From a virus, in the IMG/VR virus record IMGVR_UViG_3300020084_000003, positions 186,001 to 250,000 of that record: a DNA stretch of 64,000 nucleotides. One strand, given 5' to 3'. Below the pieces are notes generated by a model. That model saw nothing but the letters and a program-made list of their open reading frames with translations. It did no database searches and had not been told where the DNA came from. Positions 1 to 37,869 of the stretch are shown in pieces. The stretch's first letter is position 1. Each line of letters begins with the position of its first letter. Position numbers and translations under genes: made by a program.

Positions 1-220
1 AAGGAAATGTTACTTCAAATGGTTTATCTGGGCAACCAGCAGCAATGTGACTGTCCAGTGCGTTAGACCAAATCTCTCTTGTGATAGATTGAACTTTATC
101 AGCATACAAGCCTGAAATCAAGGTTTGAAATGCCTTACTATTTGCAACAATAGTAAAGGCATTTGTATCACCGGAAGAATTAATAGTTACGTCATTCTTA
201 GCATGTTTAGTAGTAATCAT
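1..220 (-). CDS. rIIA: rIIA-like GHKL-type protein, N-terminal fragment
   Basis: Only the first 73 codons lie in the window; the gene runs off the left edge. The start ATG at 220 is preceded by an AAGGA-type ribosome site. Residues 20-58 resemble T4 rIIA: a short strand (AFTIVANSKAF) followed by a helix carrying E49, N53 and D56 in REIWSNALDSH, the N-box of GHKL ATPases. T4 rIIA is a membrane-associated early protein needed in hosts carrying the lambda rex exclusion system, and its biochemical role is still unclear. The call rests on the N-box and similarity remembered from T4, so the family is fairly likely but the rest of the protein is unseen. Another GHKL ATPase is possible. Confidence 0.6.
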   Translation of the reverse strand, partial: MITTKHAKNDVTINSSGDTNAFTIVANSKAFQTLISGLYADKVQSITREIWSNALDSHIAAGCPDKPFEVTFP

Positions 221-229
221 AATATATCC

Positions 230-901
230 TTATTCCGTGTTTTGGTTCCTCATTGGGCTACACACCGCATCCAGCATATCTGGATACCAATCGCCTCTAC
301 GCATCAATGTTTTAATTCTAATACCATAGCTGTAAACCTGACATTCGTTAACACCCGGTGCAACTACAGCGGCAACTCTGTCAGGATAGAAGAAATATCC
401 TCTGGTAAAAAGAGAATAAACTTGGTGAAATGCAGTCGGTCTTACCCTAAAGTAAACTGAGTTTGCTTCCGAACATGGAATGGTTTCACATCCGCGAACC
501 GAATAAACATCGTCTTCTGGGTTTACCTCTTCCGCATTGGTCAGATATATAACCTCATACTGCTGCGTTGTCAAGAACAAAGTTGCCTGATATGAGAAAA
601 ACAAAACCATAGGAATAAGATAAAGTGAAGCAACTGTGGCGAGGATCACCAGACCTGCCCTCATACGGGAAAATCTACCATCACCTTTGTATAGGGTCCA
701 TTTCCAAATTTTAATTTCTCTTTTGTAAACTAGTTTATTCCAAATCCACATGTAACGATCAGAAAACCAGCGCCATACACGAAAGATTCTGCGCCCAATG
801 GGGACCATGATTTTTTGCCAAATCCATGTCAGACCTAGCATATACTGTGCCAGCCATTTAAGGACTCGGGCAGGCCAAGGTTCTTTAAGATATTCGCTCA
901 T
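230..901 (-). CDS. single-pass membrane protein of unknown function
   Basis: 223 residues. The N-terminal 70 residues are very rich in Trp and basic residues and look amphipathic. One clear membrane segment follows (about residues 82-104). The C-terminal half is soluble, with a close cysteine pair (CETIPC) and a few aromatic-rich strands; if the membrane segment is a signal anchor the cysteines could form a disulfide in the periplasm. AAAGG sits upstream of the ATG. It ends 9 bases before the rIIA-like start, so the two are probably cotranscribed. No family was recognised with confidence. Confidence 0.75.
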   Translation of the reverse strand: MSEYLKEPWPARVLKWLAQYMLGLTWIWQKIMVPIGRRIFRVWRWFSDRYMWIWNKLVYKREIKIWKWTLYKGDGRFSRMRAGLVILATVASLYLIPMVLFFSYQATLFLTTQQYEVIYLTNAEEVNPEDDVYSVRGCETIPCSEANSVYFRVRPTAFHQVYSLFTRGYFFYPDRVAAVVAPGVNECQVYSYGIRIKTLMRRGDWYPDMLDAVCSPMRNQNTE

Positions 902-939
902 GGGACAAACCTTTCATAAATGGGATGGGAAGTCCCGCA

Positions 940-3003
940 TTATAGAATGCGGAACTTTTTGTTTTCATAAATGAACTCAAGTCTACCTGAATTGCCATCA
1001 AGAATGAAATCAGTAACTTGCGGCTCAAGCTGTGAAATAATGAAGCCGGGAAGACCACGCGCACCTGTTCTAGCATCATAATTTTCTTCACAGAATTTTT
1101 CAATGCAAGCATCACTAACCACAACATCAACATTGGAATGTTTGTAAGAATTCGCAACGTCAACCAGTTCACGCTTAACAATCTTTTCAATTGAATCAAG
1201 TTCAAGACGGTTAAAGCAAATGATGTTCTGACGGCCATTGAAACGGTTTAGGAATTCTGGACGATATTGCTCATCCAAATCAACCTTAGCCAATTTCTCA
1301 GCATCATCAAAGGACAGGTCCATATTAAGGAAATGAGGCTGACCGATGTTTGTTGTCATAATGATAATAGATTCCGAGAAATCTGCAACACGACCAACGT
1401 TATCAGTAAGACGCCCATCATCCAGAATTTGAAGGAAAAGGTTGAACACATCTGGGTGCGCCTTTTCAATCTCATCGAACAGGATGATTCGGTTTCTATT
1501 CTTTCGCATCTCATTTGTCAAGATGCCACCAGCTTCAAAGCCCTCGTAACCCGGAGGCGCACCAATTAGTTTAGAAACTGCATGACGCTCCATGTATTCC
1601 GACATATCAAAGCGCAGCAAAGCCTTAGCATCACCCTGTAGGGCTTCTGCAATTCTTTTAGCAACTTCTGTCTTGCCAACACCTGACGGACCCATGAACA
1701 GGAAACTGGCCTGCGGCTTGTTTTTATTCCGACGCCCAACACGTGACACTTTAATTGCGTTGGATGATTTCACCAGAACATGATCCTGACCGAAAACATG
1801 ACTTTTAAGAATTGTTTCAAGATTACGTAGAATCTCTTTTTCATCTTCGTCAAGTTTGTTTGCAGCAATACCAGTAATACGTGAAAATTCCTTTACGACT
1901 TCATCACGGGTAAGCATTAGATCAGCATTCATAATTTCAGTTAGTTCATCAAATTCTTTCTTTGATTTGATTACTTCTTCCTTTGCTACTTCTAGCATCT
2001 GGCGAAGACGAGTGATTTCAGGAGTATCATACGTTGTCCCTGAAATAAGAGCATCAAAACCAGTGTTTGCTGGACCCTCAGAACCTTTTTCTTTTTGAAT
2101 TTCAATCAGTTCTGCGATCTTTTCTTCAACCGAAACAATTGAATTTTCAGCTTGCCGTTGGCGATTGTGTGCATTACGCATACGAGCCTGACGATCCTTG
2201 AATTGCTTCACCTGTTCAATCATATCTTCTTGATTTTCAGAATTTTTCACAGAAGGCGTCCGGTGTGAGTCTAGACGATACCCGGCCAGCGCACGATCTA
2301 GCAGAGAAATTGCGCGACTTGGCTGAGAAATTCCTAGACCATTATCAATGCGATATTTAACTGTCAGTTCTATTGCAGTCTGAATTGCCTCTTCTGAGAT
2401 TTTAATGCGATGAAAATCTTGAAGTTTTGCAGCACCAGCATTGGTGATTTCTACCAGTGCTTCACCAACCGGCTCAGTCACATCCATCATGGTATAATTT
2501 TCACGAATATCTGAATGCCACTTGATAATGGGATCAATTGCAGAATCCGACACTTCAAGAATAACTTGAAGTTTACCTTCTTTGACTGCACTATTGATTA
2601 CGTTGATAAAATGCGAAGTCCCTGCGTTGCGGCAAGCTTCATAAAAATCACCAGTGTCTTCGATAATCAGAATAGGATCAATAGTATTGCGAAGACGGCG
2701 AATAGCAGAATTAAATGCTTTTGTAATCTCAGCATTATCACCTGACGAAAACATATTATCAACATCAAGCCAGAATAGCCTTTTTGCGACCAAATCAAAC
2801 GGCGCATTATCATCCGTTTTCATTTCTTGTAGCCCAAGGCATAGTGCGGTAGAACCAACACCAGAAGGACCAACCAGAAGAACAGAATTGCATTTCTTAC
2901 GAACAAGAATTGAAGACAGCAAGTCCATTTCAGCTTTACGACCGACTAGCTTGAAGTCTTTAATTTTGCTAAGATAGTCACTACCATTAATAAGATAATC
3001 CAT
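940..3003 (-). CDS. ClpA/ClpB-like double AAA+ ATPase, degenerate first site
   Basis: 687 residues, two AAA+ modules without the usual Clp N-domain. Module 1 starts at once (residue 17 on). Its Walker A reads GPSGVGST (45-52), with Ser in place of the catalytic Lys, and its Walker B region (LIIEDTGDF) lacks the DE pair, so this site probably does not hydrolyse ATP. A charged, helical stretch (about 265-370) resembles a ClpB middle domain. Module 2 is intact: Walker A GPSGVGKT (438-445), pore loop GYEG, Walker B LFDEIEKAH, arginine-finger region RPEFLNRF and sensor-2 GARGL. Family role: hexameric unfolding or disaggregation of proteins. I saw no clear ClpP-docking loop. GAGGA precedes the start. 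A hairpin at 3035-3054 separates it from the coiled-coil gene upstream. Confidence 0.88.
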   Translation of the reverse strand: MDYLINGSDYLSKIKDFKLVGRKAEMDLLSSILVRKKCNSVLLVGPSGVGSTALCLGLQEMKTDDNAPFDLVAKRLFWLDVDNMFSSGDNAEITKAFNSAIRRLRNTIDPILIIEDTGDFYEACRNAGTSHFINVINSAVKEGKLQVILEVSDSAIDPIIKWHSDIRENYTMMDVTEPVGEALVEITNAGAAKLQDFHRIKISEEAIQTAIELTVKYRIDNGLGISQPSRAISLLDRALAGYRLDSHRTPSVKNSENQEDMIEQVKQFKDRQARMRNAHNRQRQAENSIVSVEEKIAELIEIQKEKGSEGPANTGFDALISGTTYDTPEITRLRQMLEVAKEEVIKSKKEFDELTEIMNADLMLTRDEVVKEFSRITGIAANKLDEDEKEILRNLETILKSHVFGQDHVLVKSSNAIKVSRVGRRNKNKPQASFLFMGPSGVGKTEVAKRIAEALQGDAKALLRFDMSEYMERHAVSKLIGAPPGYEGFEAGGILTNEMRKNRNRIILFDEIEKAHPDVFNLFLQILDDGRLTDNVGRVADFSESIIIMTTNIGQPHFLNMDLSFDDAEKLAKVDLDEQYRPEFLNRFNGRQNIICFNRLELDSIEKIVKRELVDVANSYKHSNVDVVVSDACIEKFCEENYDARTGARGLPGFIISQLEPQVTDFILDGNSGRLEFIYENKKFRIL

Positions 3004-3034
3004 ATTTTCCTCTTTTTAATTGATGGAAATTAAT

Positions 3035-3054
3035 GAGGGGCCGTTAAGCCCCTC
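3035..3054 (-). terminator. hairpin between coiled-coil and AAA+ genes
   Basis: A 7-bp GC-rich inverted repeat (GAGGGGC / GCCCCTC) with a 6-base loop lies directly after the stop codon of the coiled-coil gene. The tail is ATTAATTTCC, only partly T-rich, so it may attenuate rather than stop transcription into the AAA+ gene. Confidence 0.6.
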
Positions 3055-3057
3055 AGA

Positions 3058-4728
3058 TTAGAAACTAAATGAGTCTTTGGTTTTTTGGTTAGTATCTGGT
3101 TTGATACCTAGTGCATCTTCTGCACGTGCAAATTCACCATGAGCCATCTTAGTGTGTAGTGCTTCCGCATCACGTAGTTCTTTACGCAGATGTTCAGTTT
3201 GCTCAAATAGCGCAGTCATGTTTTCGTTCATTACAGTCAGACCTTGGCGAACAATATCAGACGAAGCTTTTTGAGTGTCGCGGAACGATTCTAGTTCAGC
3301 AAAAACGCTTTCCATGTCATTGTTGATTTTATCAACATTCATCGCATTACGAATGACTTCTTGTTGAGTAATTTCGTTAGTGCGGCGGCGCATGTGATCC
3401 AGAGTTTGTTCAACTACACCAGCAGATTCGCTAATAGCAGCACCAGATACAGCAGTCATGACAGATGCAAGACGATCAGCAGTTGCAGAAACACCCTGAG
3501 TATTCAGTTTGCGGGCAACATCGACTTGCTGATTTGTTGCTTCTTTCATAGAATTGACGCGAACGGTTTGTTGTGACAATTCGCCGTATGTTGTCAAGGT
3601 TTCGCCCTGTGCGCTATGCAGCATTTTTGAATGAGAATCTAGGTTGCGAAGTTTATCTTCGGTTTCCATTTTGGCAATAATGTCATCGCCAACTTCACCA
3701 AGACTTTTTTCAAGATCATCACGCTTGGACAGGTTTGTGGTAGCGGCAGTTTTCATGCCTTCTGTCATAATAGCATAAATTGAAACCATTTTACGGTTGT
3801 TATCGTCGGCTTTATCCAGTTGCTCAGTCAGAGTCCCAAATTCGCCGCGAATTAGATTTGTATTATCACGTGCGCTACTCACAAAATTAAGTGCAGAGTC
3901 ACGCAGACGAACAACTCGCGCAGAGTTTTCTTCGGATGAAAGATCAAGCAGTTCGCGAAGACGCTCTTTGTGGACAGCCATTTCGCCCAATTCAGATTGA
4001 CGATTAATAGTTTCATTCCGCATTTGTGTAATACTGTCAGCAAGTTCTTTTGCTTTTTGCTCACTTTGCTGAATAAGCAGTTCATTTGCAGCGATTTCTT
4101 TGCGGGCAGCTTCGGTGATGTTGCCATAACCAAACAGACCACGCTTTTGTGCCAGTTCAACGTTTTTCACACGGAGTTCCTGTGTCTTACGCACATTTTC
4201 AATGCGCTCTTGCTCTTTTTGAGCAAGATCAACTTTACGCTGTTCATCTGCCTTACGGTCATTTTCAATTTCTTGATATGCCTTGTGAAGATCGCCAGAT
4301 GTGCGTAGTTGATAAATGGAGTCGATAATTTCCATTAGCGGTTGAAGATCAGTTTCAAAGTCAATAAGACCTTTATTCATATCTTCAATAACACGCTGTA
4401 GCGATGCAAACGTGTCAGTATTTGTTAGTTCAATAATTTGTTCGGCCAGTTTTGTGTTCTGGTGTGAAAGCCATTCGCGGAATTCTTCATAGGCTTTAAT
4501 ATTGGCCCGATCCTGCTCTTTGTCTAGAGTAGAAGTCATCAATTTAGCCAATTCTGCCTTACGCTCATTAGGCGTTGCATTACCTGCAAGCATAATTTTA
4601 TAAATTGCGTTTCCTTGAATGTTGTCGGATGTATCTTCTTTAGTCGTAGAGCGCGCACTATTGCGAATACGCTCACGAACAGAATCATTAACTGCAACCG
4701 AACGTTTTAGACTTGAAGCACCTGCCAT
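3058..4728 (-). CDS. long coiled-coil protein of unknown function
   Basis: 556 residues from the ATG at 4728, chosen because AAAGGA sits about 8 bases upstream; an in-frame ATG at 4752 lacks a good site and overlaps the previous gene. The protein is almost wholly alpha-helical with Glu/Lys/Gln-rich heptads from about residue 110 to the end, short breaks near a Gly-rich turn (RGLFGYGN) and an Ala/Ser-rich helix (VMTAVSGAAISESAG), and no signal or membrane segment. The repeated helical hairpins recall toxic-anion-resistance (TelA-like) proteins in style, but I could not find a diagnostic motif. It sits between a small membrane protein and the AAA+ ATPase, apparently in one transcription unit, which suggests a partner or substrate role. 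Confidence 0.8.
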   Translation of the reverse strand: MAGASSLKRSVAVNDSVRERIRNSARSTTKEDTSDNIQGNAIYKIMLAGNATPNERKAELAKLMTSTLDKEQDRANIKAYEEFREWLSHQNTKLAEQIIELTNTDTFASLQRVIEDMNKGLIDFETDLQPLMEIIDSIYQLRTSGDLHKAYQEIENDRKADEQRKVDLAQKEQERIENVRKTQELRVKNVELAQKRGLFGYGNITEAARKEIAANELLIQQSEQKAKELADSITQMRNETINRQSELGEMAVHKERLRELLDLSSEENSARVVRLRDSALNFVSSARDNTNLIRGEFGTLTEQLDKADDNNRKMVSIYAIMTEGMKTAATTNLSKRDDLEKSLGEVGDDIIAKMETEDKLRNLDSHSKMLHSAQGETLTTYGELSQQTVRVNSMKEATNQQVDVARKLNTQGVSATADRLASVMTAVSGAAISESAGVVEQTLDHMRRRTNEITQQEVIRNAMNVDKINNDMESVFAELESFRDTQKASSDIVRQGLTVMNENMTALFEQTEHLRKELRDAEALHTKMAHGEFARAEDALGIKPDTNQKTKDSFSF

Positions 4729-4744
4729 AGTATAATTCCTTTCA

Positions 4745-4963
4745 TTAACCAAGTGTATAGATTATTAAGTAGTAGATTGGAAAAAACGGGAAGAACAGAA
4801 CTTTCTCGACCCATGTATATTCCGAAAATTTGAATTTAGGTTCTAAAGGAACCATGTGGTTTCTTTTCTCAAAGATTGTTTCATAGATGCCGATGCCGAT
4901 AGCACCAAGAATGCTACCGATCCATGCACCTATAAACAATCCTAAAAGCCATTCGATACCCAT
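4745..4963 (-). CDS. small two-segment membrane protein
   Basis: 72 residues with a Gly/Ile-rich N-terminal membrane helix (about 4-28, containing GxxxG-like spacing) and a second hydrophobic stretch at the C-terminus (about 53-71). First gene after a strong sigma70-type promoter at 4992-5020, and directly upstream of the coiled-coil and AAA+ genes, so it may anchor that set at the membrane. Function unknown. Confidence 0.65.
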   Translation of the reverse strand: MGIEWLLGLFIGAWIGSILGAIGIGIYETIFEKRNHMVPLEPKFKFSEYTWVEKVLFFPFFPIYYLIIYTLG

Positions 4964-4991
4964 TATGGTTCCTTTCCGAATCTATGCAGAA

Positions 4992-5020
4992 GTTATAGCA
5001 TTGTCAGTTTGCCTTGTCAA
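4992..5020 (-). promoter_or_regulatory. sigma70-like promoter ahead of membrane/coiled-coil/AAA+ genes
   Basis: On the minus strand TTGACA (5015-5020) and TATAAC (4992-4997) are separated by 17 bases. It overlaps the 3' end of the zinc-ribbon-like gene and is placed to transcribe 4745-4963 and onward. Confidence 0.75.
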
Positions 5021-5270
5021 CCTCAATGTGATCGTATGATGCCTCATCAATATCTCCTAAGACAAGTTTATCTTCGATCCCTTGTGCAACGCATTTGTCG
5101 CAAATACAAACACGAAGTCTTTTAACTTCAACTACGGGGTCAAAAATGGTAGACCCATAGTGTCCATATGTTATAAATTCAAGCCCATCCATAGGATGGA
5201 AGCTATTTTCTTTTGGTGTGTCAAATTCTTCCAAGTCCTTTTTACACACAATACATTTAACTTTTTTCAT
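5004..5270 (-). CDS. small Cys-rich (zinc-ribbon-like) protein
   Basis: 88 residues. Two CxxC knuckles, CIVC near residue 7 and CICDKC near residue 55, form a likely four-Cys zinc site. The centre is hydrophilic and the C-terminus acidic. It follows the 86-residue gene after a 4-base gap. Function unknown; small zinc proteins of this kind are common early phage genes. Confidence 0.65.
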   Translation of the reverse strand: MKKVKCIVCKKDLEEFDTPKENSFHPMDGLEFITYGHYGSTIFDPVVEVKRLRVCICDKCVAQGIEDKLVLGDIDEASYDHIEVDKAN

Positions 5271-5274
5271 TTTA

Positions 5275-5535
5275 TTACCCCCATATTATTGAAATACTGT
5301 TCTTGAGTATTCCCCTATTAAGGGAACATTTAAATCCTAAGTTTTCGAAATGTTCGATGATTAGTTTATGATTAACCTTGCGGTTAATATTCTTCTTAAC
5401 ACCATACATTCCATTGGTAGCTTTCTGCTCAATTTCATAGTTTATCTCGGAAATCAATACGGAAATTTCTTTATCATTAATACACTTTTCATAATATTGA
5501 TCCGCTAATTCCCGCATTTGATCCGCGTATGTCAT
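5275..5535 (-). CDS. hypothetical protein downstream of thg1
   Basis: 86 residues, mixed charge, predicted alpha then alpha/beta, C-terminus hydrophobic (ILKNSISIIWG). Its ATG overlaps the Thg1 stop as ATGA and AGGGAG sits upstream, so it is translationally coupled to Thg1. No family recognised. Confidence 0.65.
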   Translation of the reverse strand: MTYADQMRELADQYYEKCINDKEISVLISEINYEIEQKATNGMYGVKKNINRKVNHKLIIEHFENLGFKCSLNRGILKNSISIIWG

Positions 5536-6335
5536 TTTGGCTCCCTATGCCTTAGATCATCAAAAAATGCAATTTTATTCTCGAAAGACATTTTCGAAAA
5601 GTGTTTTGCTGTAGCCATCGCCACTTTCTTCCTTAGAATTACATCCCCATTTTCTCCCGTAATCTCAGTTTTTTCTCTGAAAATAACGGTTCCATAGCGA
5701 TATTGTTCCGGGTATTCGGCTTTAGCATCAATTCCGCGCTCTAGCATATCTGCATACATTTGTTTTCCAGATAGCTTTTGCATTGCGGCATGTCCAACCC
5801 TCCAACGATATACGCAGGACACGAAGTTTTTCTTACAATCCTGAATGCGCCAAAGAACAGAGTTGACAGCTTCGCCAACATCAGGGACGTTGAAAATCCT
5901 ACAATCAAAACGGGCAATATCTCCCGCTTTAAATTCTTCCTCTGCCGCAAATAGAATTTTTTCTTCTTTTACATTACGCAGGAAGAAAGCTGTTGCAGAT
6001 GCAGCGAAAATGCTAGTGCTTTTCTGCACTCGCCCATCAAACGGAATACATACTTTCCCGTTATCAGATTTGGGCAGAAAAATCAATGTGATTTCATCAG
6101 ACTGCACGTAACCAAAGTCTGCATGTAATTCGTCAACCAAATCCTTCGCAGTCTGCACCATGCAGTTGACCATATTACTATCATATGGTTTAACCATTTT
6201 ACTTGTGTATTTGGAAAACCGTTTTCCATCAATCCGACAGATAATAGGAGAATCAAGACTTAGAAAAGTCTCGGAGGACTTCTCATAAGCCTTCATCCTA
6301 TTTCCAAATTCGTCGTTCTTTTTGTAATCGCCCAT
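5532..6335 (-). CDS. tRNA-His guanylyltransferase (Thg1) family protein
   Basis: 267 residues. Family enzymes add nucleotides to tRNA 5' ends in the 3'-to-5' direction; bacterial and phage Thg1-like proteins tend to act in 5'-end repair or editing. Visible landmarks are CRIDGKRFSKYT (D36 with the following Gly, the first metal site) and QSDEITLIF (about residues 78-86, second carboxylate), followed by the KSTSIFAA segment. The length matches the family. A good site (AGGA) precedes the start. It lies near an Rnl2-type RNA ligase, so the two may form an RNA-repair pair. Whether it adds G-1 or performs general repair cannot be told from sequence. Confidence 0.88.
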   Translation of the reverse strand: MGDYKKNDEFGNRMKAYEKSSETFLSLDSPIICRIDGKRFSKYTSKMVKPYDSNMVNCMVQTAKDLVDELHADFGYVQSDEITLIFLPKSDNGKVCIPFDGRVQKSTSIFAASATAFFLRNVKEEKILFAAEEEFKAGDIARFDCRIFNVPDVGEAVNSVLWRIQDCKKNFVSCVYRWRVGHAAMQKLSGKQMYADMLERGIDAKAEYPEQYRYGTVIFREKTEITGENGDVILRKKVAMATAKHFSKMSFENKIAFFDDLRHREPK

Positions 6336-6343
6336 ATTATTTC

Positions 6344-6532
6344 CTATTTTTGCTTCAATGACTTCATAACAAATTCAAGTGGAGTTTGCTTGTTTGGTAG
6401 TTCTTTACCAATCATAAAATACTCTTCAAGCGTAATCAATGCGTCTTCCAAATCTTTGATTCTTCGACTTCCTTCTACGCATAGCACACGGGAAGGTTTC
6501 TCATGTTCCAGACGATATGTCAAGTCACTCAT
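6344..6532 (-). CDS. small hypothetical protein
   Basis: 62 residues, charged, mostly helical, no membrane segment. Strong AAGGAG site upstream. It sits between the RNA ligase and Thg1 genes, just after the ligase terminator hairpin. Function unknown. Confidence 0.6.
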   Translation of the reverse strand: MSDLTYRLEHEKPSRVLCVEGSRRIKDLEDALITLEEYFMIGKELPNKQTPLEFVMKSLKQK

Positions 6533-6549
6533 TTTAAATCTCCTTATTA

Positions 6550-6574
6550 GAGATGGTGCTTATCGCACCATCTC
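6550..6574 (-). terminator. hairpin overlapping the RNA ligase stop codon
   Basis: A perfect 10-bp inverted repeat (GAGATGGTGC / GCACCATCTC) with a 5-base loop. The upstream arm encodes the last sense codons of the ligase and the stop lies in the loop. The tail (TAATAAGG) is not a T-run, so it may act as an mRNA-stabilising or attenuating stem. Confidence 0.6.
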
Positions 6575-7576
6575 AGTTTTATTTTTAAGCCATTGAACAG
6601 CTTTCGCACCAATTACTTTCTTGGCCGAATTCATATCAATGCCCGATGCTTCACGCTCATTAACAGTTTCTTTTTCAATATCTGCAATGATAGCCCGCAT
6701 GAAATCGGGGGTGCGTTTCATTGAATATTCACCTTCACAATGCTCGGTAATCATTTGCTCACAACGTGCATCAGTGACATACGTATCAGCAAATTCATAA
6801 ACAGACGCAGGGACTTCAACTTTAACCTTTGCACCCTTGGTTTTATTTGCACTATGGGCTTCTGTCTTTGCTTTAAAGACCATTGCACCAAATAGATCGC
6901 GAGGAATACGAGCATAATTGCCGTCTAGCGATGGGTAGCAAACATAACCTTCACCAAAACCTTCGACGCCGAATAGATCAAAGATATATTCGTCTTTGAC
7001 AGAAATAGCATCAACCTTTTCGTTGATGTAATCTGCGAATGCTTGCGGCGAATTTGTTTCGTCCGATCCAAAGAAAACAACTTTACGTGCTTCATCTGCC
7101 CAAGGAAGAATGAAAACATCTTCATGGGTTGCCAGTTCGACCGAAATGAGTTTTTTAATTTCATCTGGTTCTGCTACGATATGACGTTCATTACCATTGA
7201 TAATTTCAATTGAAAAAATGAAGAATTTCTTTGAAGAAAGGCGCGTCACCGCGTCACCATTGTTGATGCCGTTGCCAGCCCACTCCCCACAAATAACATA
7301 CGTAGCATCTGGATAATCATATAGAGGATCAATTTGCCAAGCATCATAACCAATTTGGTTCGCCCAATTTGCGAAACCAAAGTTATCACTATTAACAGTA
7401 ATATCTTGCGAACGCTTTTGGTAAAAAATTCCATCTGGTTCAACACGAACCGCAGCATTAGTGCCGTGCAACTTGACCTTTGGACGATAGAACGCCTCTT
7501 TAATAAATCCACGTTGTGCAAAAATGATCGCATCCGAAAATTTATCAATTGAAGTCCACTTAACAAAACCAGTCAT
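6560..7576 (-). CDS. Rnl2-type RNA ligase
   Basis: 338 residues from the ATG at 7576, which has AAAGGAGAG 7 bases upstream (a longer in-frame start at 7600 has none). T4 Rnl2-like ligases seal nicked RNA through a ligase-AMP intermediate. Nucleotidyltransferase motifs are in order: motif I KLHGTN with nucleophile K35, motif III region YVICGEWAGNGI, motif IV EGYVCYP and motif V FKAKTEAH. A C-terminal helical domain follows, as in Rnl2. It has its own promoter (7607-7635) and ends in a hairpin. With Thg1 it suggests repair of tRNAs cut by host defence nucleases. Confidence 0.88.
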   Translation of the reverse strand: MTGFVKWTSIDKFSDAIIFAQRGFIKEAFYRPKVKLHGTNAAVRVEPDGIFYQKRSQDITVNSDNFGFANWANQIGYDAWQIDPLYDYPDATYVICGEWAGNGINNGDAVTRLSSKKFFIFSIEIINGNERHIVAEPDEIKKLISVELATHEDVFILPWADEARKVVFFGSDETNSPQAFADYINEKVDAISVKDEYIFDLFGVEGFGEGYVCYPSLDGNYARIPRDLFGAMVFKAKTEAHSANKTKGAKVKVEVPASVYEFADTYVTDARCEQMITEHCEGEYSMKRTPDFMRAIIADIEKETVNEREASGIDMNSAKKVIGAKAVQWLKNKTEMVR

Positions 7577-7606
7577 AACAATCTCTCCTTTCAATTTCAT
7601 TGCCCT

Positions 7607-7635
7607 CTTCTAACACTGATTCGTTGTGAAGTCAA
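7607..7635 (-). promoter_or_regulatory. sigma70-like promoter for RNA ligase
   Basis: TTGACT (7630-7635), 17-base spacer, TAGAAG (7607-7612) on the minus strand, about 30 bases ahead of the ligase start. Confidence 0.6.
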
Positions 7636-7949
7636 GAGTAATCTTTATTCTCATAAATTACACACTCAGAGCTTAACTTGAAATACATTATTGCAATTTG
7701 TCTGTAGTGTTTGGCTGTAAACTCAGCTATCTTCTTAATGTCCTTTTCACTGCACATGATATTTACAGGAATAACCCTGTCTTCATACAGTGCGCCCTTG
7801 TGAACCCATTGACCCTTGCCGGGCTTTAGGATTGTAAGGCCACCTGTGATTTTTCTGACATACTCATCCCAATTCTTGTGATGCTTTGTTCTAACAGGCT
7901 TGCCATTATCATTAAAATTGCAAGGAACTAAGATTTGATACAAATTCAT
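7632..7949 (-). CDS. hypothetical protein
   Basis: 105 residues, no membrane segment; predicted alpha/beta with conserved-looking patches (NWDEYVRKITGGLTILKPGKGQW) split by basic residues. Strong AAAGGAG site. Lies between NAMPT and the RNA ligase. Resembles small proteins seen in other phages whose function is not known. Confidence 0.65.
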   Translation of the reverse strand: MNLYQILVPCNFNDNGKPVRTKHHKNWDEYVRKITGGLTILKPGKGQWVHKGALYEDRVIPVNIMCSEKDIKKIAEFTAKHYRQIAIMYFKLSSECVIYENKDYS

Positions 7950-7972
7950 GATATATCTCCTTTCAAAGTAGA

Positions 7973-7994
7973 AGGGCGAGGTTTCCCCCGCCCT
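7973..7994 (-). terminator. hairpin after NAMPT gene
   Basis: GC-rich 9-bp stem (AGGGCGRGG / CCYCGCCCT, with one G-T pair) and a 3-4 base loop, 8 bases beyond the NAMPT stop. It lacks a long T-run. Confidence 0.6.
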
Positions 7995-8001
7995 ATATTA
8001 A

Positions 8002-9396
8002 TTACATTGCAGCATTTTCCCTGACTTGATCGAATTTCCAATCATAAATCAGGCGACCGTTTTCAAAGACAAGACCAAGTTCATCTTTTGCAAGATTTTC
8101 TTCGGTTTCAGGAACAGTGAAATAATCACCGTTGATATCTTTAATTACGCAGAATTTGCCTTGTTTAGATTTTTTGACCGGATCGGTGACAGGGCTTTTG
8201 CTGATTGCTTTGCCAACACCGTCAATGACCACGTAGCTTGCTTTCATGGCAAATTTTTGGTCATCGCGTTGTGGTGCGCCAAGCAGCTTGCCACCCATAC
8301 CAAAGGTAATGTTGTCACCAGACATTTTGTAGCTTTCCATATTTTCGTAAATCTTGGAGATAGAATCTTTGTCGATGCCATCGCCTTGAATTACACGAAT
8401 ATATGGAGGAAGAACTTTATAACCCTTTTCGTTAACAGTCCATCCGAAAACATTCATCAAAATGCGAATAACTTCAACTGGAACAACGGTAGGATCGCCG
8501 CTATCAGGACGAACAACCAGAGTTGCGCCAACTTCACCCAATGAAATCACTTTGTCTTTAAGAGTTCCACCCACAACATTTTCAACAAAATTGTAAATAT
8601 CGTAAGTATCAGAAACCGCAGAAATGATTTTCATTCCAGCCGCTAGGCTCTTGTCGATGTGATTTTCAAGATATTCTGCCTCTTGGTCAGGACCAAAAGA
8701 AGTAGAAATTGAATGCTCAGTCGCAGGAACAGAAAACGCAGTGGTGTTCAAATCTGCATTGTAGTAATTCATTGCAAATTCAAGACCAGAAATGGTATCA
8801 GTTCCCATGAAGTTGACTAGGTGTGCTGCACCGCCAATACCAGCAGATTCAAAGGTATGTGCGCCACGCGCCCCAAAATCGTGCAATTTGAAAAGAAGGC
8901 CACCAACATCACCAGTTTTTTCCAGATTCCGTTTAATCATTTTCTTGATTGCACGGCTATTGGTTGCCACAGTGGTTGGATACCAGATAGCGCGAAGCAT
9001 AGCGGTTTCAACCCAAGTGGTTAGCCAGTAAAATTCTGGATCGGTGTTGTAGATGGTTGCCATAACCGTTTTGGTCTTGACAATACTTCCCTCTGGAAGA
9101 GCTTTAATAGCAAGGGGAAGGAAGCCGTCATGTTTTTCAACAATACGCATCCACCCTTCGGTATTGAAAGGTTCACCATGAATTTTCATAAGACGTTCTG
9201 CTTTCAAAACATCTTGTTTGGTCACAGGTTTCATCAGATACTCCTTGATGAAATATTGCAGACCGAAAAATACCAATTCATCTTCATTGCCACCACGACT
9301 TTCAACATAACTGTAAACAGTAGTGGTGTTTTCTGGGTATTGTAGGAACATGCCTACTTTATAGCTGTCGGTATTAGTAATAATATTCTTTTCCAT
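8002..9396 (-). CDS. nadV: nicotinamide phosphoribosyltransferase (NAMPT/NadV)
   Basis: 464 residues, full family length. Converts nicotinamide and PRPP to NMN, the first step of NAD+ salvage. Signatures: N-terminal TDSYKVGMF and YVESRGG; KLHDFGARG, the family's phosphate/PRPP region; VNFMGTDT; VPATEHS with the catalytic His that is phosphorylated in the family; and VVRPDSGDP. AAGGAG precedes the ATG and a sigma70-like promoter lies at 9444-9472. Together with NMN adenylyltransferase at 10472-11521 it completes a two-step NAD+ synthesis route of the kind reported in phages that counter NAD-depleting defences. Confidence 0.95.
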   Translation of the reverse strand: MEKNIITNTDSYKVGMFLQYPENTTTVYSYVESRGGNEDELVFFGLQYFIKEYLMKPVTKQDVLKAERLMKIHGEPFNTEGWMRIVEKHDGFLPLAIKALPEGSIVKTKTVMATIYNTDPEFYWLTTWVETAMLRAIWYPTTVATNSRAIKKMIKRNLEKTGDVGGLLFKLHDFGARGAHTFESAGIGGAAHLVNFMGTDTISGLEFAMNYYNADLNTTAFSVPATEHSISTSFGPDQEAEYLENHIDKSLAAGMKIISAVSDTYDIYNFVENVVGGTLKDKVISLGEVGATLVVRPDSGDPTVVPVEVIRILMNVFGWTVNEKGYKVLPPYIRVIQGDGIDKDSISKIYENMESYKMSGDNITFGMGGKLLGAPQRDDQKFAMKASYVVIDGVGKAISKSPVTDPVKKSKQGKFCVIKDINGDYFTVPETEENLAKDELGLVFENGRLIYDWKFDQVRENAAM

Positions 9397-9443
9397 TAGA
9401 AACTCCTTCTAAATTGGTTTAGTTTGCCTTTATTGGCTCTTAT

Positions 9444-9472
9444 AATGTAGCATCTCAACACGCATTTGTCAA
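9444..9472 (-). promoter_or_regulatory. sigma70-like promoter for NAMPT
   Basis: TTGACA (9467-9472), 17-base spacer, TACATT (9444-9449), about 48 bases upstream of the start codon. Confidence 0.65.
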
Positions 9473-9481
9473 GTGCTACTT

Positions 9482-10102
9482 TCACATCTCAGGATCACCC
9501 AAGGTTGTGAAATTTCCTTTCATCAGATTGTCGATATACGCATAATCATTAGATTTATCTTCAATGTAACTGATAACTTCTTGCAACTTCTGCTTAAATT
9601 CATCAGGCATACTTTCCAACTGTTTTACGACATATCTTTTATCTGAATTTTGAATAATAAGTTTGTTATCTTCTGTAACCATAAACTTTACCTGTTTTTC
9701 TACAGGTTTCTTGTCTGGATAATAATCTATTCTGTATCCTTTTAAGCTTCCATTTTCCTTGAATGTTGTTCTTGCATCAAAAGTAAATTTATCATAGGTT
9801 ATGCCCCATTTTTTTATACTATTATTCACATTTTGAACAATGATCGAAGTATAATTTCTAAGCTGACTTAGCCAAGATTCATGCTTTTTATATTCTAGTG
9901 TTGCAACAAAATCATCTGCATGAGGACGGCGCATATGATCTTCAACATTATACTTAAATTTATTTTCTTCATGGCTGAAATAAATGACAATTTTACCTTT
10001 GCCGTCAAATAGAGGGAAATCAAGAAAAACCTCATTCTTTGGCGTAAGGCTTCTAGTAGTAATTTGATTAGCTTGCAATGAGTAGAAATTATCATACTGC
10101 AT
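9482..10102 (-). CDS. hypothetical protein within the NAD+ gene block
   Basis: 206 residues from the ATG at 10102, which has GAGGT eight bases upstream; longer in-frame starts lie inside the previous gene. Predicted beta-rich N-terminal half with many aromatic residues, then a helical C-terminus (about 165-200). No signal or membrane segment. It overlaps the end of the next upstream gene by 11 bases, so it is coupled to it. No family recognised; position between the two NAD+ synthesis genes is the only clue. Confidence 0.7.
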   Translation of the reverse strand: MQYDNFYSLQANQITTRSLTPKNEVFLDFPLFDGKGKIVIYFSHEENKFKYNVEDHMRRPHADDFVATLEYKKHESWLSQLRNYTSIIVQNVNNSIKKWGITYDKFTFDARTTFKENGSLKGYRIDYYPDKKPVEKQVKFMVTEDNKLIIQNSDKRYVVKQLESMPDEFKQKLQEVISYIEDKSNDYAYIDNLMKGNFTTLGDPEM

Positions 10103-10472
10103 TTTCAAATACCTCATAAAACATAGTTTGAACCCTAAGACTAACAAGACTGCCATTAGTCAGGATATATTTCTCATTATTCGATTTATCAATAACATAG
10201 TAATACCTATGCTTTGTGTTGTAATTTATGGTATCAATGTAAGTATATTCAACACCTTCGACTTTAATTGACTTGGGAATGTATGAAAATTTATCATCAA
10301 CCATTTCTACGAAAGTATGTCTACTTGTAGACACTACAGAATGTTTTTCTGATTTTTTCATTTCATAGTCAATAGTGCTAACGGGAGGTTTTCCTCCGTT
10401 AGCAAATATTGAGGCACAAATCACCAAGTGGGCATCTCTCATAATATTTCGAATTGCCTGCCGGTTTTGCAT
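10092..10472 (-). CDS. hypothetical protein downstream of nadM
   Basis: 126 residues. Short helical N-terminus (QAIRNIMRDAHLVICASI) then a beta-rich, Tyr-rich domain (about 45-125). The start overlaps the nadM stop as TAATG, so translation is coupled to the NMN adenylyltransferase. Function unknown. Confidence 0.7.
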   Translation of the reverse strand: MQNRQAIRNIMRDAHLVICASIFANGGKPPVSTIDYEMKKSEKHSVVSTSRHTFVEMVDDKFSYIPKSIKVEGVEYTYIDTINYNTKHRYYYVIDKSNNEKYILTNGSLVSLRVQTMFYEVFENAV

Positions 10473-11521
10473 TAGTCAATTCCGATATAGAACGAGATGA
10501 TATGGAAATGGTCTTCAAAACACATTTCGCGCCTGATATCGTGGAAAGGAACCCATTTTGCTTTTTCAGCATCATCGGCACCTTTTACGTGCGGAAGATC
10601 AGGGAAATTCCCAAGATCAATTTTTGCAGCGTGAGTGATTACTCGACCACGTTCCGAACGACCCGGATTGTCAAAAGTATGAACATGCTTGATGTTACGC
10701 TTAATAACTTCTTCCGGCACTTTAAGCAGAGTTTCTTCACGCAATTCTCGAACGATGCAATCCTTGATACGCTCATATGGATTGATAAAACCACCCGGAA
10801 GCGCCCAAAGACCTTTCCCCGGCGCAACTTTACGTTGAACCATAAGGACGTGACCCGATTGAATGACAACAGCATCGCCCGTAACAAACGTAGGAGCATA
10901 CGGCGCAACTTCCCAAGATTTCTTGTAAGCTTTGATATATTCATATTCTTCTACGAGTTTAACACCAGTTTCATCTTTTTCCAGAATTGCCTCAATATCT
11001 TCAAAAACACTGAGTTTTACAAGATCAGAAACATCCAGTTGATTTTCATTAGGAAGGCCATATGTAGCACGATTTTCATAAAATGCGGTGCGAACATCAG
11101 TAGCATTCATCACAAGACCCTTGCGATTTTGCACAGGCTTGACTTCAACAGTCTGCCATTGCGGGAAAAGAACGCTCAGATAATAAGACGACGCATCTTT
11201 AGCGTAACCAATAAGACCAATTTTGGCATCACGCGGTGCGATGTTATAGACAGCCTTTTGCACACCCGCAACCCATTTATCGTCATTATACGGGTAATCG
11301 TAGATAGGTGCAGTAATAATTTCAGGATTGGCACGATGCACCCAAAGTTCTCGTTCTTCATACGTGAACGGATTTTTCAGAGTGCGCGGTTCACCAGCGG
11401 AACCGATTAGGGCGATAACATTGTCAGCATATTCATATGCGACGTTTAGAACCTCAGTATGTGCCAGTGTGACCGGTTGCATACGCCCAATAAAAACTAG
11501 ATAGTCGAACTTCTTTTTCAT
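10472..11521 (-). CDS. nadM: bifunctional NMN adenylyltransferase / Nudix hydrolase
   Basis: 349 residues with two domains. Residues 1 to about 190: nucleotidylyltransferase with the GRMQPVTLAH motif (TxxH, T18-H21) and a later NATDVR loop, joining NMN and ATP to NAD+. Residues about 200-349: Nudix domain with box GGFINPYERIKDC followed by RELREET, matching GX5EX7REUXEE; in known relatives this half cleaves ADP-ribose or related dinucleotides. Strong AAAGGAG site and a consensus promoter (11558-11586). With NAMPT it makes a complete nicotinamide-to-NAD+ route. Confidence 0.94.
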   Translation of the reverse strand: MKKKFDYLVFIGRMQPVTLAHTEVLNVAYEYADNVIALIGSAGEPRTLKNPFTYEERELWVHRANPEIITAPIYDYPYNDDKWVAGVQKAVYNIAPRDAKIGLIGYAKDASSYYLSVLFPQWQTVEVKPVQNRKGLVMNATDVRTAFYENRATYGLPNENQLDVSDLVKLSVFEDIEAILEKDETGVKLVEEYEYIKAYKKSWEVAPYAPTFVTGDAVVIQSGHVLMVQRKVAPGKGLWALPGGFINPYERIKDCIVRELREETLLKVPEEVIKRNIKHVHTFDNPGRSERGRVITHAAKIDLGNFPDLPHVKGADDAEKAKWVPFHDIRREMCFEDHFHIISFYIGID

Positions 11522-11557
11522 AGCAAAAACTCCTTTGCATATTTCTTTTACAGTCTC

Positions 11558-11586
11558 TTTATATCACTTACGAGAGTCGTTGTCAA
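11558..11586 (-). promoter_or_regulatory. consensus sigma70-like promoter for nadM
   Basis: TTGACA (11581-11586), 17-base spacer, TATAAA (11558-11563), about 37 bases ahead of the nadM start and overlapping the end of the upstream small gene. Confidence 0.78.
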
Positions 11587-11824
11587 CCCCCTTTTCCTCT
11601 TCCATTTCTTTCTTTAAATCGTCATATACTTTTTTCATTTGGGGCGCTTCGTTACGAACCAATGAAATTATATGTAAAGTGGTGTAAATGAAAGGAAAAA
11701 CAATCATAAAAATTATAATTCCAAATGGAATCTTAAATAGTGAGGTTAGGCTTAATGCCATTAGAATTAAGCCCATATAGAACATAATAGAAATTGTTCT
11801 TTTATATTTTAAGTTATCGTTCAT
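11564..11824 (-). CDS. small two-helix membrane protein
   Basis: 86 residues from the ATG at 11824, which overlaps the previous stop as ATGA. Two hydrophobic segments (about residues 12-31 and 36-56) separated by a short turn, then an acidic and lysine-rich C-terminal tail. Likely inner-membrane with both ends on the same side. Function unknown. Confidence 0.65.
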   Translation of the reverse strand: MNDNLKYKRTISIMFYMGLILMALSLTSLFKIPFGIIIFMIVFPFIYTTLHIISLVRNEAPQMKKVYDDLKKEMEEEKGVDNDSRK

Positions 11825-12258
11825 GTCCACAACGCATTATAGAAGGTTCCGAACAAGATAAGACCGTTTTCAATCCTTTTTTCTACAGCAGCGATTGCTT
11901 CATCATCTCTGCTAACTAGGGCAGAATCTTTCCAAACTTCAAACTCTTCTTCCCATTCGCCCCACTGCTTTTTTCTTTCAAAAGCAAAAATCATTTCGTC
12001 TATAACCCATTCCCATTTCAAATATGCACTATCATCAACGTCTTCTCCCCATTTATTACCATTCTTTAGATGGTCAGGGACAAGAGAATCATCAACAAAA
12101 GGACAGCCCTTGTATTCCTTTAGCTTTAGAAGAAGGGGATGGATAATCAACGCCAGAGTATGATCTGCATTCCAAGTATCATAATCGTGTATTTCGATTT
12201 CAACTTTTCTTTCAGACTCTTCATCTAGGTTAGGATACGGGCCTATTTCAATTTTCAT
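11821..12258 (-). CDS. acidic hypothetical phage protein
   Basis: 145 residues, very acidic and Trp-rich. Recognisable patches (DYDTWNADHTLALIIHPLL, KWEWVIDEMIFAFE) recur in proteins of many unrelated phages that I recall only as hypothetical. AAGGA eight bases upstream of the start. No catalytic motif seen. Confidence 0.72.
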   Translation of the reverse strand: MKIEIGPYPNLDEESERKVEIEIHDYDTWNADHTLALIIHPLLLKLKEYKGCPFVDDSLVPDHLKNGNKWGEDVDDSAYLKWEWVIDEMIFAFERKKQWGEWEEEFEVWKDSALVSRDDEAIAAVEKRIENGLILFGTFYNALWT

Positions 12259-35855: not shown

Positions 35856-36188
35856 TTATCTTTTATTTTTTATAAATTCGTATAGCTTGTTAGCAGTATT
35901 TATAACATCATCCTCATCATATCCTTGTTTAGACGCAGTTTCCGCAATATTACTTGTAACAGAATTTGAATTTATTGAAAATGGTGTGGCGTTGTAACCC
36001 ACAGAAGACGCTGATATAGTTCTATTTGTAGCCAATTTTCCGCCTTCAATAACATTATTCTCTACTATAATATCGGACGCCAACTTTGCGGCGTCCAACT
36101 TGTTGTCTTCTTTTGATTGAAGAATGGTTTGTGCTAACTTTAGGACTTCCAATCTAATTTGGAATGGTGAACTATCTGTATTACTCAT
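35856..36188 (-). CDS. conserved small phage protein
   Basis: 110 residues from the ATG at 36188, 8 bases inside the end of the vWA gene. N-terminal helix SPFQIRLEVLKLAQTIL resembles small conserved proteins of T4-like phages; the middle is Asn/Ser/Thr-rich and the C-terminus helical (DVINTANKLYEFI). Function unknown. Confidence 0.65.
   Translation of the reverse strand: MSNTDSSPFQIRLEVLKLAQTILQSKEDNKLDAAKLASDIIVENNVIEGGKLATNRTISASSVGYNATPFSINSNSVTSNIAETASKQGYDEDDVINTANKLYEFIKNKR
35897..35904 (-). promoter_or_regulatory. possible late octamer inside the 35856-36188 gene
   Basis: TATAAATA within coding sequence (codons for INTA), 76 bases ahead of the start at 35821. Could serve gp33/gp59 late, or be chance. 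Confidence 0.35.
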
Positions 36189-37011
36189 CTTTTTTACTTC
36201 CCATTGCGCTTGCTCTTTCCTCATCAGTAAAAGCAGTTTTAGCATAAGCTTCTGTTAAAGAAGCACTTGAACCGCTAACCATCTCAGCTTTAAGGCTATT
36301 AACCATACGTGTCGCGGCCATGCTGGTAGCAGTAACGCCAGCAGAATCATGCGCGTATTGAATGGTGTTATTTACATTAAAACCTAATTGTGATCCAACT
36401 GAAAATGCATCAATGTTTGCCCCCATGAACATAAATGCCCAATTGGATTCATTACATTTAGAATACATTTTTTGGATATCTGCCATACTAAATGTTTTTG
36501 AAGCATTTTCAAGACCATCTGTGATTATTGTTATGATAACACTTGGTCTTTCTTTCTTCTTGGCAGAAGCCAGTTTTTGATTTACTGTAGCAATAACAGA
36601 ACCCATACCATCATATAGATTAGTCATACCGATTGGGTTATAATCTTCATTGGTAATTTCTCTTACTTCTTCAACATTGACATTATCTCTTATAGCCTTG
36701 ACGTGATTTCCGTCAAAGGTGTAAACTGATATAAATGTTTTAATGTTATTTGTCTTGGCGTCTTCTCTTTGAGATGCTATAAACTCGTTTGCAGAAGAAA
36801 CGGTTGTATCTCTCAATCTTCCCATAGACCCTGATTCGTCTATCAATAGAACTACGTGAGCGCCATTCTTACCAGCTTTTTTTGCTTTAAAAGCTTCGCC
36901 AATTTGACCTAGCGGTTTTTGCACTGGCATGTAAGTTGTAGGAATAGTCAATTTGCCCCACTGGTAATTTGCATTTAATGGCGGCAATGCGTTTGGATCG
37001 TATAATGACAT
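36181..37011 (-). CDS. von Willebrand factor A domain protein
   Basis: 276 residues from the ATG at 37011 (GGAG upstream; a longer frame extends into the promoter). A vWA domain at about 50-230: MIDAS motif DESGS (58-62), the TNLYDG threonine and the ITDGLEN aspartate are all present, so it should bind a divalent metal and a partner protein. No membrane segment or AAA partner next to it, although an AAA+ ATPase and a coiled-coil protein are coded at 0.9-4.7 kb. vWA proteins often pair with AAA+ ATPases. It has an overlapping early/late promoter. Confidence 0.88.
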   Translation of the reverse strand: MSLYDPNALPPLNANYQWGKLTIPTTYMPVQKPLGQIGEAFKAKKAGKNGAHVVLLIDESGSMGRLRDTTVSSANEFIASQREDAKTNNIKTFISVYTFDGNHVKAIRDNVNVEEVREITNEDYNPIGMTNLYDGMGSVIATVNQKLASAKKKERPSVIITIITDGLENASKTFSMADIQKMYSKCNESNWAFMFMGANIDAFSVGSQLGFNVNNTIQYAHDSAGVTATSMAATRMVNSLKAEMVSGSSASLTEAYAKTAFTDEERASAMGSKKDE

Positions 37012-37143: not shown

Positions 37144-37869
37144 ATGACAACTTATTACGTATATAGAATTACCAATAATAAACCGAATAGCATTCCAAAA
37201 TACTACTACGGTTTCAGAAAATGCAACACAAGCCCATCATTAGATACAAAATATATGGGAAGTTCTAAATATCTCAAACAAGACATAAAGAACATTGGCA
37301 TAGAATATTTCTCAAAGAAAATAATAAAAACATTTAATAATAAAGAATCTGCGATTGACTACGAAATCATGTTGCATCTAAAATTTAATGTTGATAAAAA
37401 CGTCATGTTTTATAACAGATGTAAAGCGAATAAATTTGGGTATAAATGCACAGGAGATGTTCTTAAAGGTAAAAGTTATACCGACATACACGGCGAAGAA
37501 AAAGCCATTAAATTAAAAGAAGAAAGATCAAGAAAAATTAAAGAAATCTCTTCTAACCGTAATTATATAGGCGATAAAAATCCAAATTATGGCAATAAAT
37601 GGAGTGAAGCCATGAAAGAAAAAATGTCAGAAATGAAATCGGGTCAAAATAATCCTATATATGGCAAAATCATAATAAATAACGGTATAAAAGAAAAAAG
37701 AATATCTAAAGATTCAAATATTCCAGAAGATTATGTTATAGGCAGAATCAGAAAAGATGTTTCTGGTATAGTAGAAGATTTTTTGAATTCTGGTCTTAGT
37801 AGAAAAGAATTTTCATTATTAAGAAACATAAACTACAACACTCTAAAGAAATATTTAAAGGGGGTTTAA
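37144..37869 (+). CDS. GIY-YIG homing endonuclease
   Basis: 241 residues and the only supported plus-strand gene. N-terminal GIY-YIG-type nuclease (about 1-95; TYYVYRITN, PKYYYGFRK, YEIMLHLKFN with the catalytic Glu). Then two NUMOD3-type DNA-binding motifs (GDKNPNYGNKWSEAMKEKM and SGQNNPIYGK, about 145-185), and a C-terminal helix-turn-helix-like end. It resembles T4 Seg-type free-standing homing enzymes. Its orientation, late octamer and palindromic terminator mark it as an insert between the vWA and RNase H-like genes. Confidence 0.88.
   Translation: MTTYYVYRITNNKPNSIPKYYYGFRKCNTSPSLDTKYMGSSKYLKQDIKNIGIEYFSKKIIKTFNNKESAIDYEIMLHLKFNVDKNVMFYNRCKANKFGYKCTGDVLKGKSYTDIHGEEKAIKLKEERSRKIKEISSNRNYIGDKNPNYGNKWSEAMKEKMSEMKSGQNNPIYGKIIINNGIKEKRISKDSNIPEDYVIGRIRKDVSGIVEDFLNSGLSRKEFSLLRNINYNTLKKYLKGV

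Follow-up and report, generated by a model that had tools for sequence, protein, structure and literature searches.

A helical protein (cc), a ClpB/Hsp100-like ATPase and a membrane protein (mem), encoded in that order, form a real and conserved trio with no earlier description in the libraries searched or, by full-text search, in open-licence papers. The trio is Hsp100 machinery with two new partner families, cc and mem. Its genes lie in the window, a stretch of 64,000 nucleotides comprising bases 186001-250000 of a 284,776-base virus record, that of a giant phage, which also carries T4-like replication genes (UvsX, a gp32-type SSB, a DnaB-like helicase and ribonucleotide reductase). With about even confidence, we favour the reading that the three proteins work as a membrane-tethered Hsp100 machine which phages likely use to control the host envelope, for example in superinfection exclusion.

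The locus is transcribed from the minus strand in the order 72-aa ORF, cc, ATPase, mem and rIIA, and a purine-rich site precedes the start codon of each of the first four (Table 1). A sequence-only reading of this DNA had placed three genes here, for a ClpB-like ATPase, a coiled-coil protein and a two-helix membrane protein, and all three reading frames are present, the second nearly all helical and the third with two hydrophobic stretches. Its interval stopped short of mem, however, and so missed the true third member. That reading also put a single promoter ahead of all the genes. The element is present (TTGACA, 5020-5015; TATAAC, 4997-4992; 17 nt between them), but promoter-like sites in the region numbered 17 in a scanner search, against 13.4 ± 3.7 expected, which is not above chance, and the site therefore carries little weight; the stricter -10 rule of the scanner does not list it. 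Because a terminator-like hairpin separates cc from the ATPase gene, one promoter for all genes is not certain. From its sequence, the hairpin may lower expression of the ATPase and mem relative to cc. No Rfam match was found in positions 1-12000.

Table 1. Features of the cc-ATPase-mem locus and of the vWA gene, in window coordinates.
Feature	Position	Strand	Remarks
mem, membrane protein	230-901	-	223 aa, downstream of the ATPase gene
ClpB/Hsp100-like AAA+ ATPase	940-3003	-	687 aa; AAA_2 E=5e-57
Intact D2 Walker A, MGPSGVGKTE, residues 437-446 of the ATPase	1666-1695	-	Lys444
Degenerate D1 Walker A, VGPSGVGSTA, residues 44-53 of the ATPase	2845-2874	-	Lys replaced by Ser
Terminator-like 9-bp G+C-rich hairpin, TGAGGGGCTTAACGGCCCCTCA	3034-3055	-	between cc and ATPase
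cc, first gene of the trio	3058-4728	-	556 aa, ATG at 4728, AAGGA ahead
72-aa ORF	4745-4963	-	two hydrophobic stretches
Sigma-70-like promoter, TTGACA-N17-TATAAC	4992-5020	-	upstream of the 72-aa ORF and cc; read from sequence
vWA protein, DxSxS motif	36181-37011		PHROG 7371 (no function)

The gene directly after mem runs off the window (window 1-220; L086:3722-6220) and specifies an rIIA-like product, 832 aa long in L086 (PHROG 'RIIA lysis inhibitor', E=4e-109). rIIA is itself a membrane and lysis-inhibition gene; none of the other phages listed has it next to the trio, and the neighbourhood is probably a matter of chance. A gene that is NAMPT-like by sequence resemblance only (464 aa, window 8002-9396) is also found near the trio in L005, L006 and L014.

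In addition to AAA_2, the ATPase matched ClpB_D2-small (6e-12) and AAA_lid_9 (3e-11) in Pfam, and the best PDB relative of its profile was ClpB (1qvr, E=3e-138, aligned over residues 19-687). It thus has two AAA+ domains with a ClpB-type D2 and D2-small. No Clp N-domain was among the Pfam matches listed, and D1 begins at residue ~19. The sequence-only reading had noted that the first Walker A motif, GPSGVGST, has lost its lysine; none of 41 full-length homologues retains this residue, and 21 have cysteine instead. It had also reported the Walker B acids of D1 as lost. These are altered rather than absent: the motif reads IIED in the window, and the catalytic glutamate, found in 0 of 41, is replaced by aspartate in 37 and asparagine in 4. 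The ClpB-type pore-loop sequence of D1 is likewise degenerate across the family. D2 is a different matter, with Lys444, DE510/511, Asn552, Arg587 and Arg649 invariant in 41/41 and the pore aromatic present in 40/41. Of the two functional ATPase sites expected of ClpB/Hsp100 proteins, the D1 motifs are thus intact in 0/41 members and the D2 motifs in 41/41. The IGF/IGL-type ClpP loop is missing in 40/41, which separates the family from ClpA, ClpC and ClpX and makes the PHROG name 'ATP-dependent protease' unlikely to be right. It follows from these motifs that the ATPase is, by prediction, a ClpP-independent motor with one working ring (D1 dead, D2 live), although D1 could still bind nucleotide as a pseudo-ATPase.

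The same features bear on whether the protein is a ClpG/ClpK/ClpL-type stress disaggregase with incidental partners. In favour of this explanation, no solved relative is closer than ClpB, and D1 and D2 are separated by an M-domain-like insert of 96-178 residues. Nevertheless, the D1 Walker motifs and pore loop are degenerate family-wide, the N-domain is missing and linkage with cc is obligate. The score against the ClpB equivalog TIGR03346 was 373 bits, against a cut-off of 1232, and scores were also far below the ClpG and ClpK cut-offs. We regard a disaggregase as quite improbable.

The cc protein is 31% charged, with no cysteine, three prolines and no transmembrane segment, and its AF2 model is helical throughout (mean pLDDT 75.9, low at the C-terminus). 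Forty-four members align, with 24-35% identity to cc of the window. Conservation is best in the last third (TQGVAGVADRLS...AA..ES, residues 405-460), and an FFGFGG loop between two helices is also well conserved. A fold search of the PDB with cc gave nothing at E<=0.001 and returned only generic coiled coils, and one bacterial cc (from L113) had no match among plasmids. The PspA profile aligned with cc at 0.9-2.0% (hhalign), which does not place cc among the PspA/IM30 (ESCRT-III-like) remodelers.

Kinship of cc with TelA is an open lead that we do not claim. A Foldseek search of BFVD with cc returned TelA/tellurite-resistance proteins at ranks 5, 25 and 39 (E 0.006-0.09). Shallow, deep and phage-extended TelA alignments were compared with cc, and ~200 columns were colinear, in the same register in most comparisons, at an hhalign probability of only ~2-40%; the reversed TelA controls gave 0.3-14% (14% in one) and the PspA and MCP controls ~1-2%. 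PF05816 (TelA) did not hit the phage genome at E<=10 and was absent among the Pfam matches of 13 cc members. Phage TelA genes themselves were seen in membrane-linked contexts, beside TerC/TerD-type genes in Caulobacter phage CcrBL9 (L327) and beside an SPFH-domain gene in Sinorhizobium phage Phosso (L323). Two Micavibrio-type genomes with the trio (L164, L167) also encode proteins of ~485 aa with weak TelA matches (E 5e-10 to 5e-11), which are divergent TelA relatives.

The AF2 model of mem (pLDDT 90.8) comprises an N-terminal helix (residues 9-58), a second helix (79-112) and a beta-rich C-terminal domain. The N-terminal helix is amphipathic and basic, and the one hydrophobic span of the protein lies within helix 79-112. 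The Lys/Arg-rich stretch before the span predicts an N-inside topology. Four conserved cysteines in the C-terminal domain are lost in pairs and never singly, 138/143 jointly in 8/40 sequences and 187/214 jointly in 3 of these 8. The simplest reading of this pattern is two disulfides, and hence a domain that would be periplasmic. A PDB fold search with the domain gave nothing at E<=0.001, with a weak resemblance to the OB fold of SSB (E 0.01-0.2). Neither mem nor cc matched any family in Pfam, NCBIfam, PHROG or PADLOC, in keeping with the earlier remark that the combination had no recognisable function.

Relatives of the ATPase were sought by tblastn and pattern scans, and an alignment of cc was used in a second scan of IMG/VR and in one scan of a genome collection. 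ATPase relatives were found in 180 phage records, and cc only in Agrobacterium phage Atu_ph07 (two records of one phage). There the products AUZ95252-AUZ95251-AUZ95247 belong to the same three families in the same order. They are annotated as 'hypothetical', 'ClpB protein' and 'hypothetical', and the locus has been discussed only as a lone Clp chaperone: the Atu_ph07 'ClpB' was counted among seven Clp-like proteins (PMC6102473), and AUZ95251.1 was named ClpA, with a suggested role in translocation or virion assembly and its neighbours not mentioned (PMC7824862). Unlike the window, Atu_ph07 has one gene inserted between the ATPase and mem genes; this gene has a TnpB-like start (L098:13482-14231), and comparable insertions between trio genes occur in L132 (2.5 kb) and L131.

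Among the IMG/VR ATPases closest to that of the window (L005-L017), cc lay directly upstream and mem downstream wherever the contig reached (that of L012 ends). With L131, L132 and L137-L139, which came from the scan by cc alignment, the total reached ~18 phage contigs with the trio. Other genes separate trio members in L007, L013, L015, L131 and L132, with the order cc-ATPase-mem intact, and the cc-ATPase gap was at most 166 nt in 36/40 loci. The flanks of the trio are unrelated among phages and bacteria.

The earlier reading had treated the system as a phage one, but the trio is also a chromosomal operon in bacteria. Scanning the genome collection with cc gave 29 bacterial loci, some on contigs of more than 1 Mb, in Halopseudomonas, Gilliamella, Mameliella, Plastoroseomonas, Dongia, Micavibrio and other alpha-, gamma- and deltaproteobacteria. 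The ATPase gene followed cc immediately in 29/29 (truncated where the contigs of L100 and L104 end, and present as two ORFs in L109). The mem gene came next in 23 of the 26 loci with room for it. It was missing from two Gilliamella contigs (L101, L125) and one deltaproteobacterial MAG (L124), and mem is thus not absolutely required. Beyond the trio, no gene family recurred in more than 3 of the 29 neighbourhoods, which indicates that the trio is a self-contained unit. No envelope-stress genes were found next to the bacterial copies. In Gilliamella sp. wkB171 (L125), which lacks mem, the cassette directly follows groES-groEL.

The association of cc with the ATPase extends to the state of D1. 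Where a D1 without lysine could be read in viral Clp homologues, cc was present on all 12 distinct contigs, against none of 88 hits that retain the D1 lysine (hits from two overlapping scans and not all distinct). A further 35 hits, in which motif search saw fewer than two P-loops, were without cc; among them L016 and L020 are trio members cut at a contig end. Pairwise distances between the proteins were correlated (r = 0.83 for cc-ATPase, 0.68 for cc-mem and 0.75 for ATPase-mem), in part through shared ancestry. In the loci examined, a D1-dead Hsp100 was encoded directly downstream of cc, in line with a new family. The proposal that ATPase and coiled-coil protein belong to one system therefore holds in every relative examined, and a cc gene occurring without the ATPase was found neither in the phage loci nor in the 29 bacterial ones.

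The other partners proposed by the sequence-only reading did not survive this comparison. It had combined the 72-aa peptide, cc, the ATPase and the vWA protein into one remodelling system of the MoxR/vWA kind, which we now consider very improbable. The vWA protein does accompany the trio in 8 other phage records (one marginal), and group 2.2 jumbo phages have MoxR-vWA pairs (PMC7824862). Yet its homologues are present in 215 phage records, mostly of Streptomyces, Microbacterium and Pseudomonas phages, and of these only Atu_ph07 has cc. It is far from the trio wherever both occur and absent around the bacterial trios. The vWA protein belongs to a widespread phage family without known role. The ATPase, moreover, is of the Hsp100 type and not MoxR, and the vWA gene lies ~31 kb away rather than adjacent. 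As for the two-helix peptide, no related locus has a homologue; some related phage loci have other small membrane ORFs in its place, unrelated in sequence. Next to the vWA gene, on the opposite strand, is a GIY-YIG/NUMOD3 homing endonuclease gene (37144-37869).

In a tree of cc plus ATPase, 17 virus records and two bacterial rows (Plastoroseomonas and Dongia) formed one set (SH-aLRT 100), and most bacterial copies, together with the divergent phage L014, fell outside it. The plain reading of this sequence tree is that the trio appears to have been exchanged between phages and bacteria, in a direction that the midpoint root does not give; the tree was built by a quick method and has long branches for L127, L014 and the window. 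The trio is rare in bacteria. It was found in 1/399 Pseudomonadota (the search centre itself) and in 2/385 genomes of the class of G001, search centre counted. Among Pseudomonadaceae, 5/199 genomes carry cc, and mem is present in exactly those five.

Such patchiness in bacteria, with recurrence in phages, would suit a bacterial anti-phage defence that jumbo phages have taken over against competitors, in which motor and cc sense or block infection at the membrane and possibly damage the infected cell. A type I R-M locus ~4-7 kb upstream of the Gilliamella cassette, and the position of the cassette beside rIIA in the window, would fit as well. However, cc and mem match no PADLOC 2.0 model above chance, and the ATPase matches PDC-M37B and DolB over the D2 AAA only. 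The other bacterial neighbours (a few tested) are not defence genes, conserved extra families occur in at most 3 loci, and the proteins have no nuclease, NADase or obvious toxin domain. We therefore hold a defence system to be unlikely.

A Clp-like motor could alternatively handle phage structural proteins as a virion-assembly chaperone, the role suggested for the Atu_ph07 homologue AUZ95251.1 (PMC7824862). T4-like phages are known for membrane-proximal head assembly, and the record has T4-like replication genes. But bacteria carry the same trio in their chromosomes, with housekeeping genes around it, and the phage clade leaves out most bacterial copies. Nor is it obvious what the predicted periplasmic disulfide domain would do in head assembly, and the phage neighbours shown encode RIIA, the NAMPT-like protein and other metabolic functions rather than structural proteins. 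This role is, in our view, improbable, and less probable than defence.

In the membrane-tethered machine that we favour, the three proteins would form a physical complex. The mem protein would cross the inner membrane once, N-terminus inside, with its disulfide-stabilised C-terminal domain in the periplasm, and its basic amphipathic cytosolic stretch, cc, or both would recruit the ATPase to the cytosolic face of the membrane. In the ATPase hexamer the partner would dock on the D1 ring, which would act as a scaffold and hydrolyse no ATP. Hydrolysis would be left to the D2 ring, which has the aromatic pore loop and would pull on or disassemble cc, possibly by threading it, or act on a client held by cc, in either case without ClpP. 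The cc protein may be a specific adaptor; alternatively, it may form a polymer beneath the membrane, to be reset by the motor on a signal from mem that the envelope has changed. In phages, here beside rIIA, the machine would control the host envelope during infection, for instance by excluding superinfecting phages; in bacteria it may be an optional envelope-protection module. Envelope control and superinfection exclusion are favoured because the cassette adjoins rIIA, because the cellular copies are optional and because an overview of jumbo phages (PMC7824862) assigns the TelA-type, sub-membrane proteins of the Ter system a part in blocking phage entry. This biological role is the weakest step of the mechanism.

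The usual view of Hsp100 motors is of soluble disaggregases or partners of proteases. The branch described here, spread over proteobacteria and jumbo phages, has its first ring switched off throughout and is tied to two families absent from all libraries searched, of which one is a membrane family. Seen as a trio, three 'hypothetical' genes become a single system open to testing, which provides a clean natural case in which to ask what a catalytically dead D1 ring is for.

Compared with ClpB/Hsp104 (class I Clp), the ATPase has the same D1-M-D2 layout, D2 motor motifs, aromatic D2 pore loop and lack of a ClpP loop, but differs in having no N-domain, a family-wide dead D1 and strict linkage to cc and mem. 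Dodola (DolB) and PDC-M37B of PADLOC share with it an AAA_2 match over the D2 domain; the alignment with DolB covers the AAA domain only, and the partner proteins are not shared. TelA (PF05816; YaaN/YceH/KlaB; Ter stress network) resembles cc in being all-helical and cytosolic, with a similar layout, and is often found in jumbo phages, but it measures ~350-420 aa against 556 aa for cc and, unlike cc, no Hsp100 gene lay beside the TelA genes inspected. For the arrangement as a whole, a parallel in design is Pex1/Pex6 of the peroxisome with Pex15/Pex26. Pex1/Pex6 is recruited by the membrane protein Pex15 and depends on its D2 pore loops and D2 ATPase sites, and the single-span recruiter is itself threaded (PMC5762779). 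Pex1/Pex6 differs in being a type II AAA heterohexamer of another clade and eukaryotic; the likeness is thus one of analogy and not kinship, and it indicates that a membrane-recruited, D2-driven design can work. A bolder proposal, which we put forward as doubtful, is that the trio would represent an undescribed class of envelope machine, in which an Hsp100 with one dead ring disassembles a dedicated coiled-coil polymer under the control of a trans-envelope sensor, for envelope protection in bacteria and superinfection exclusion in jumbo phages. It would then be a bacterial counterpart of the logic of Pex1/6-Pex15 or Vps4-ESCRT.
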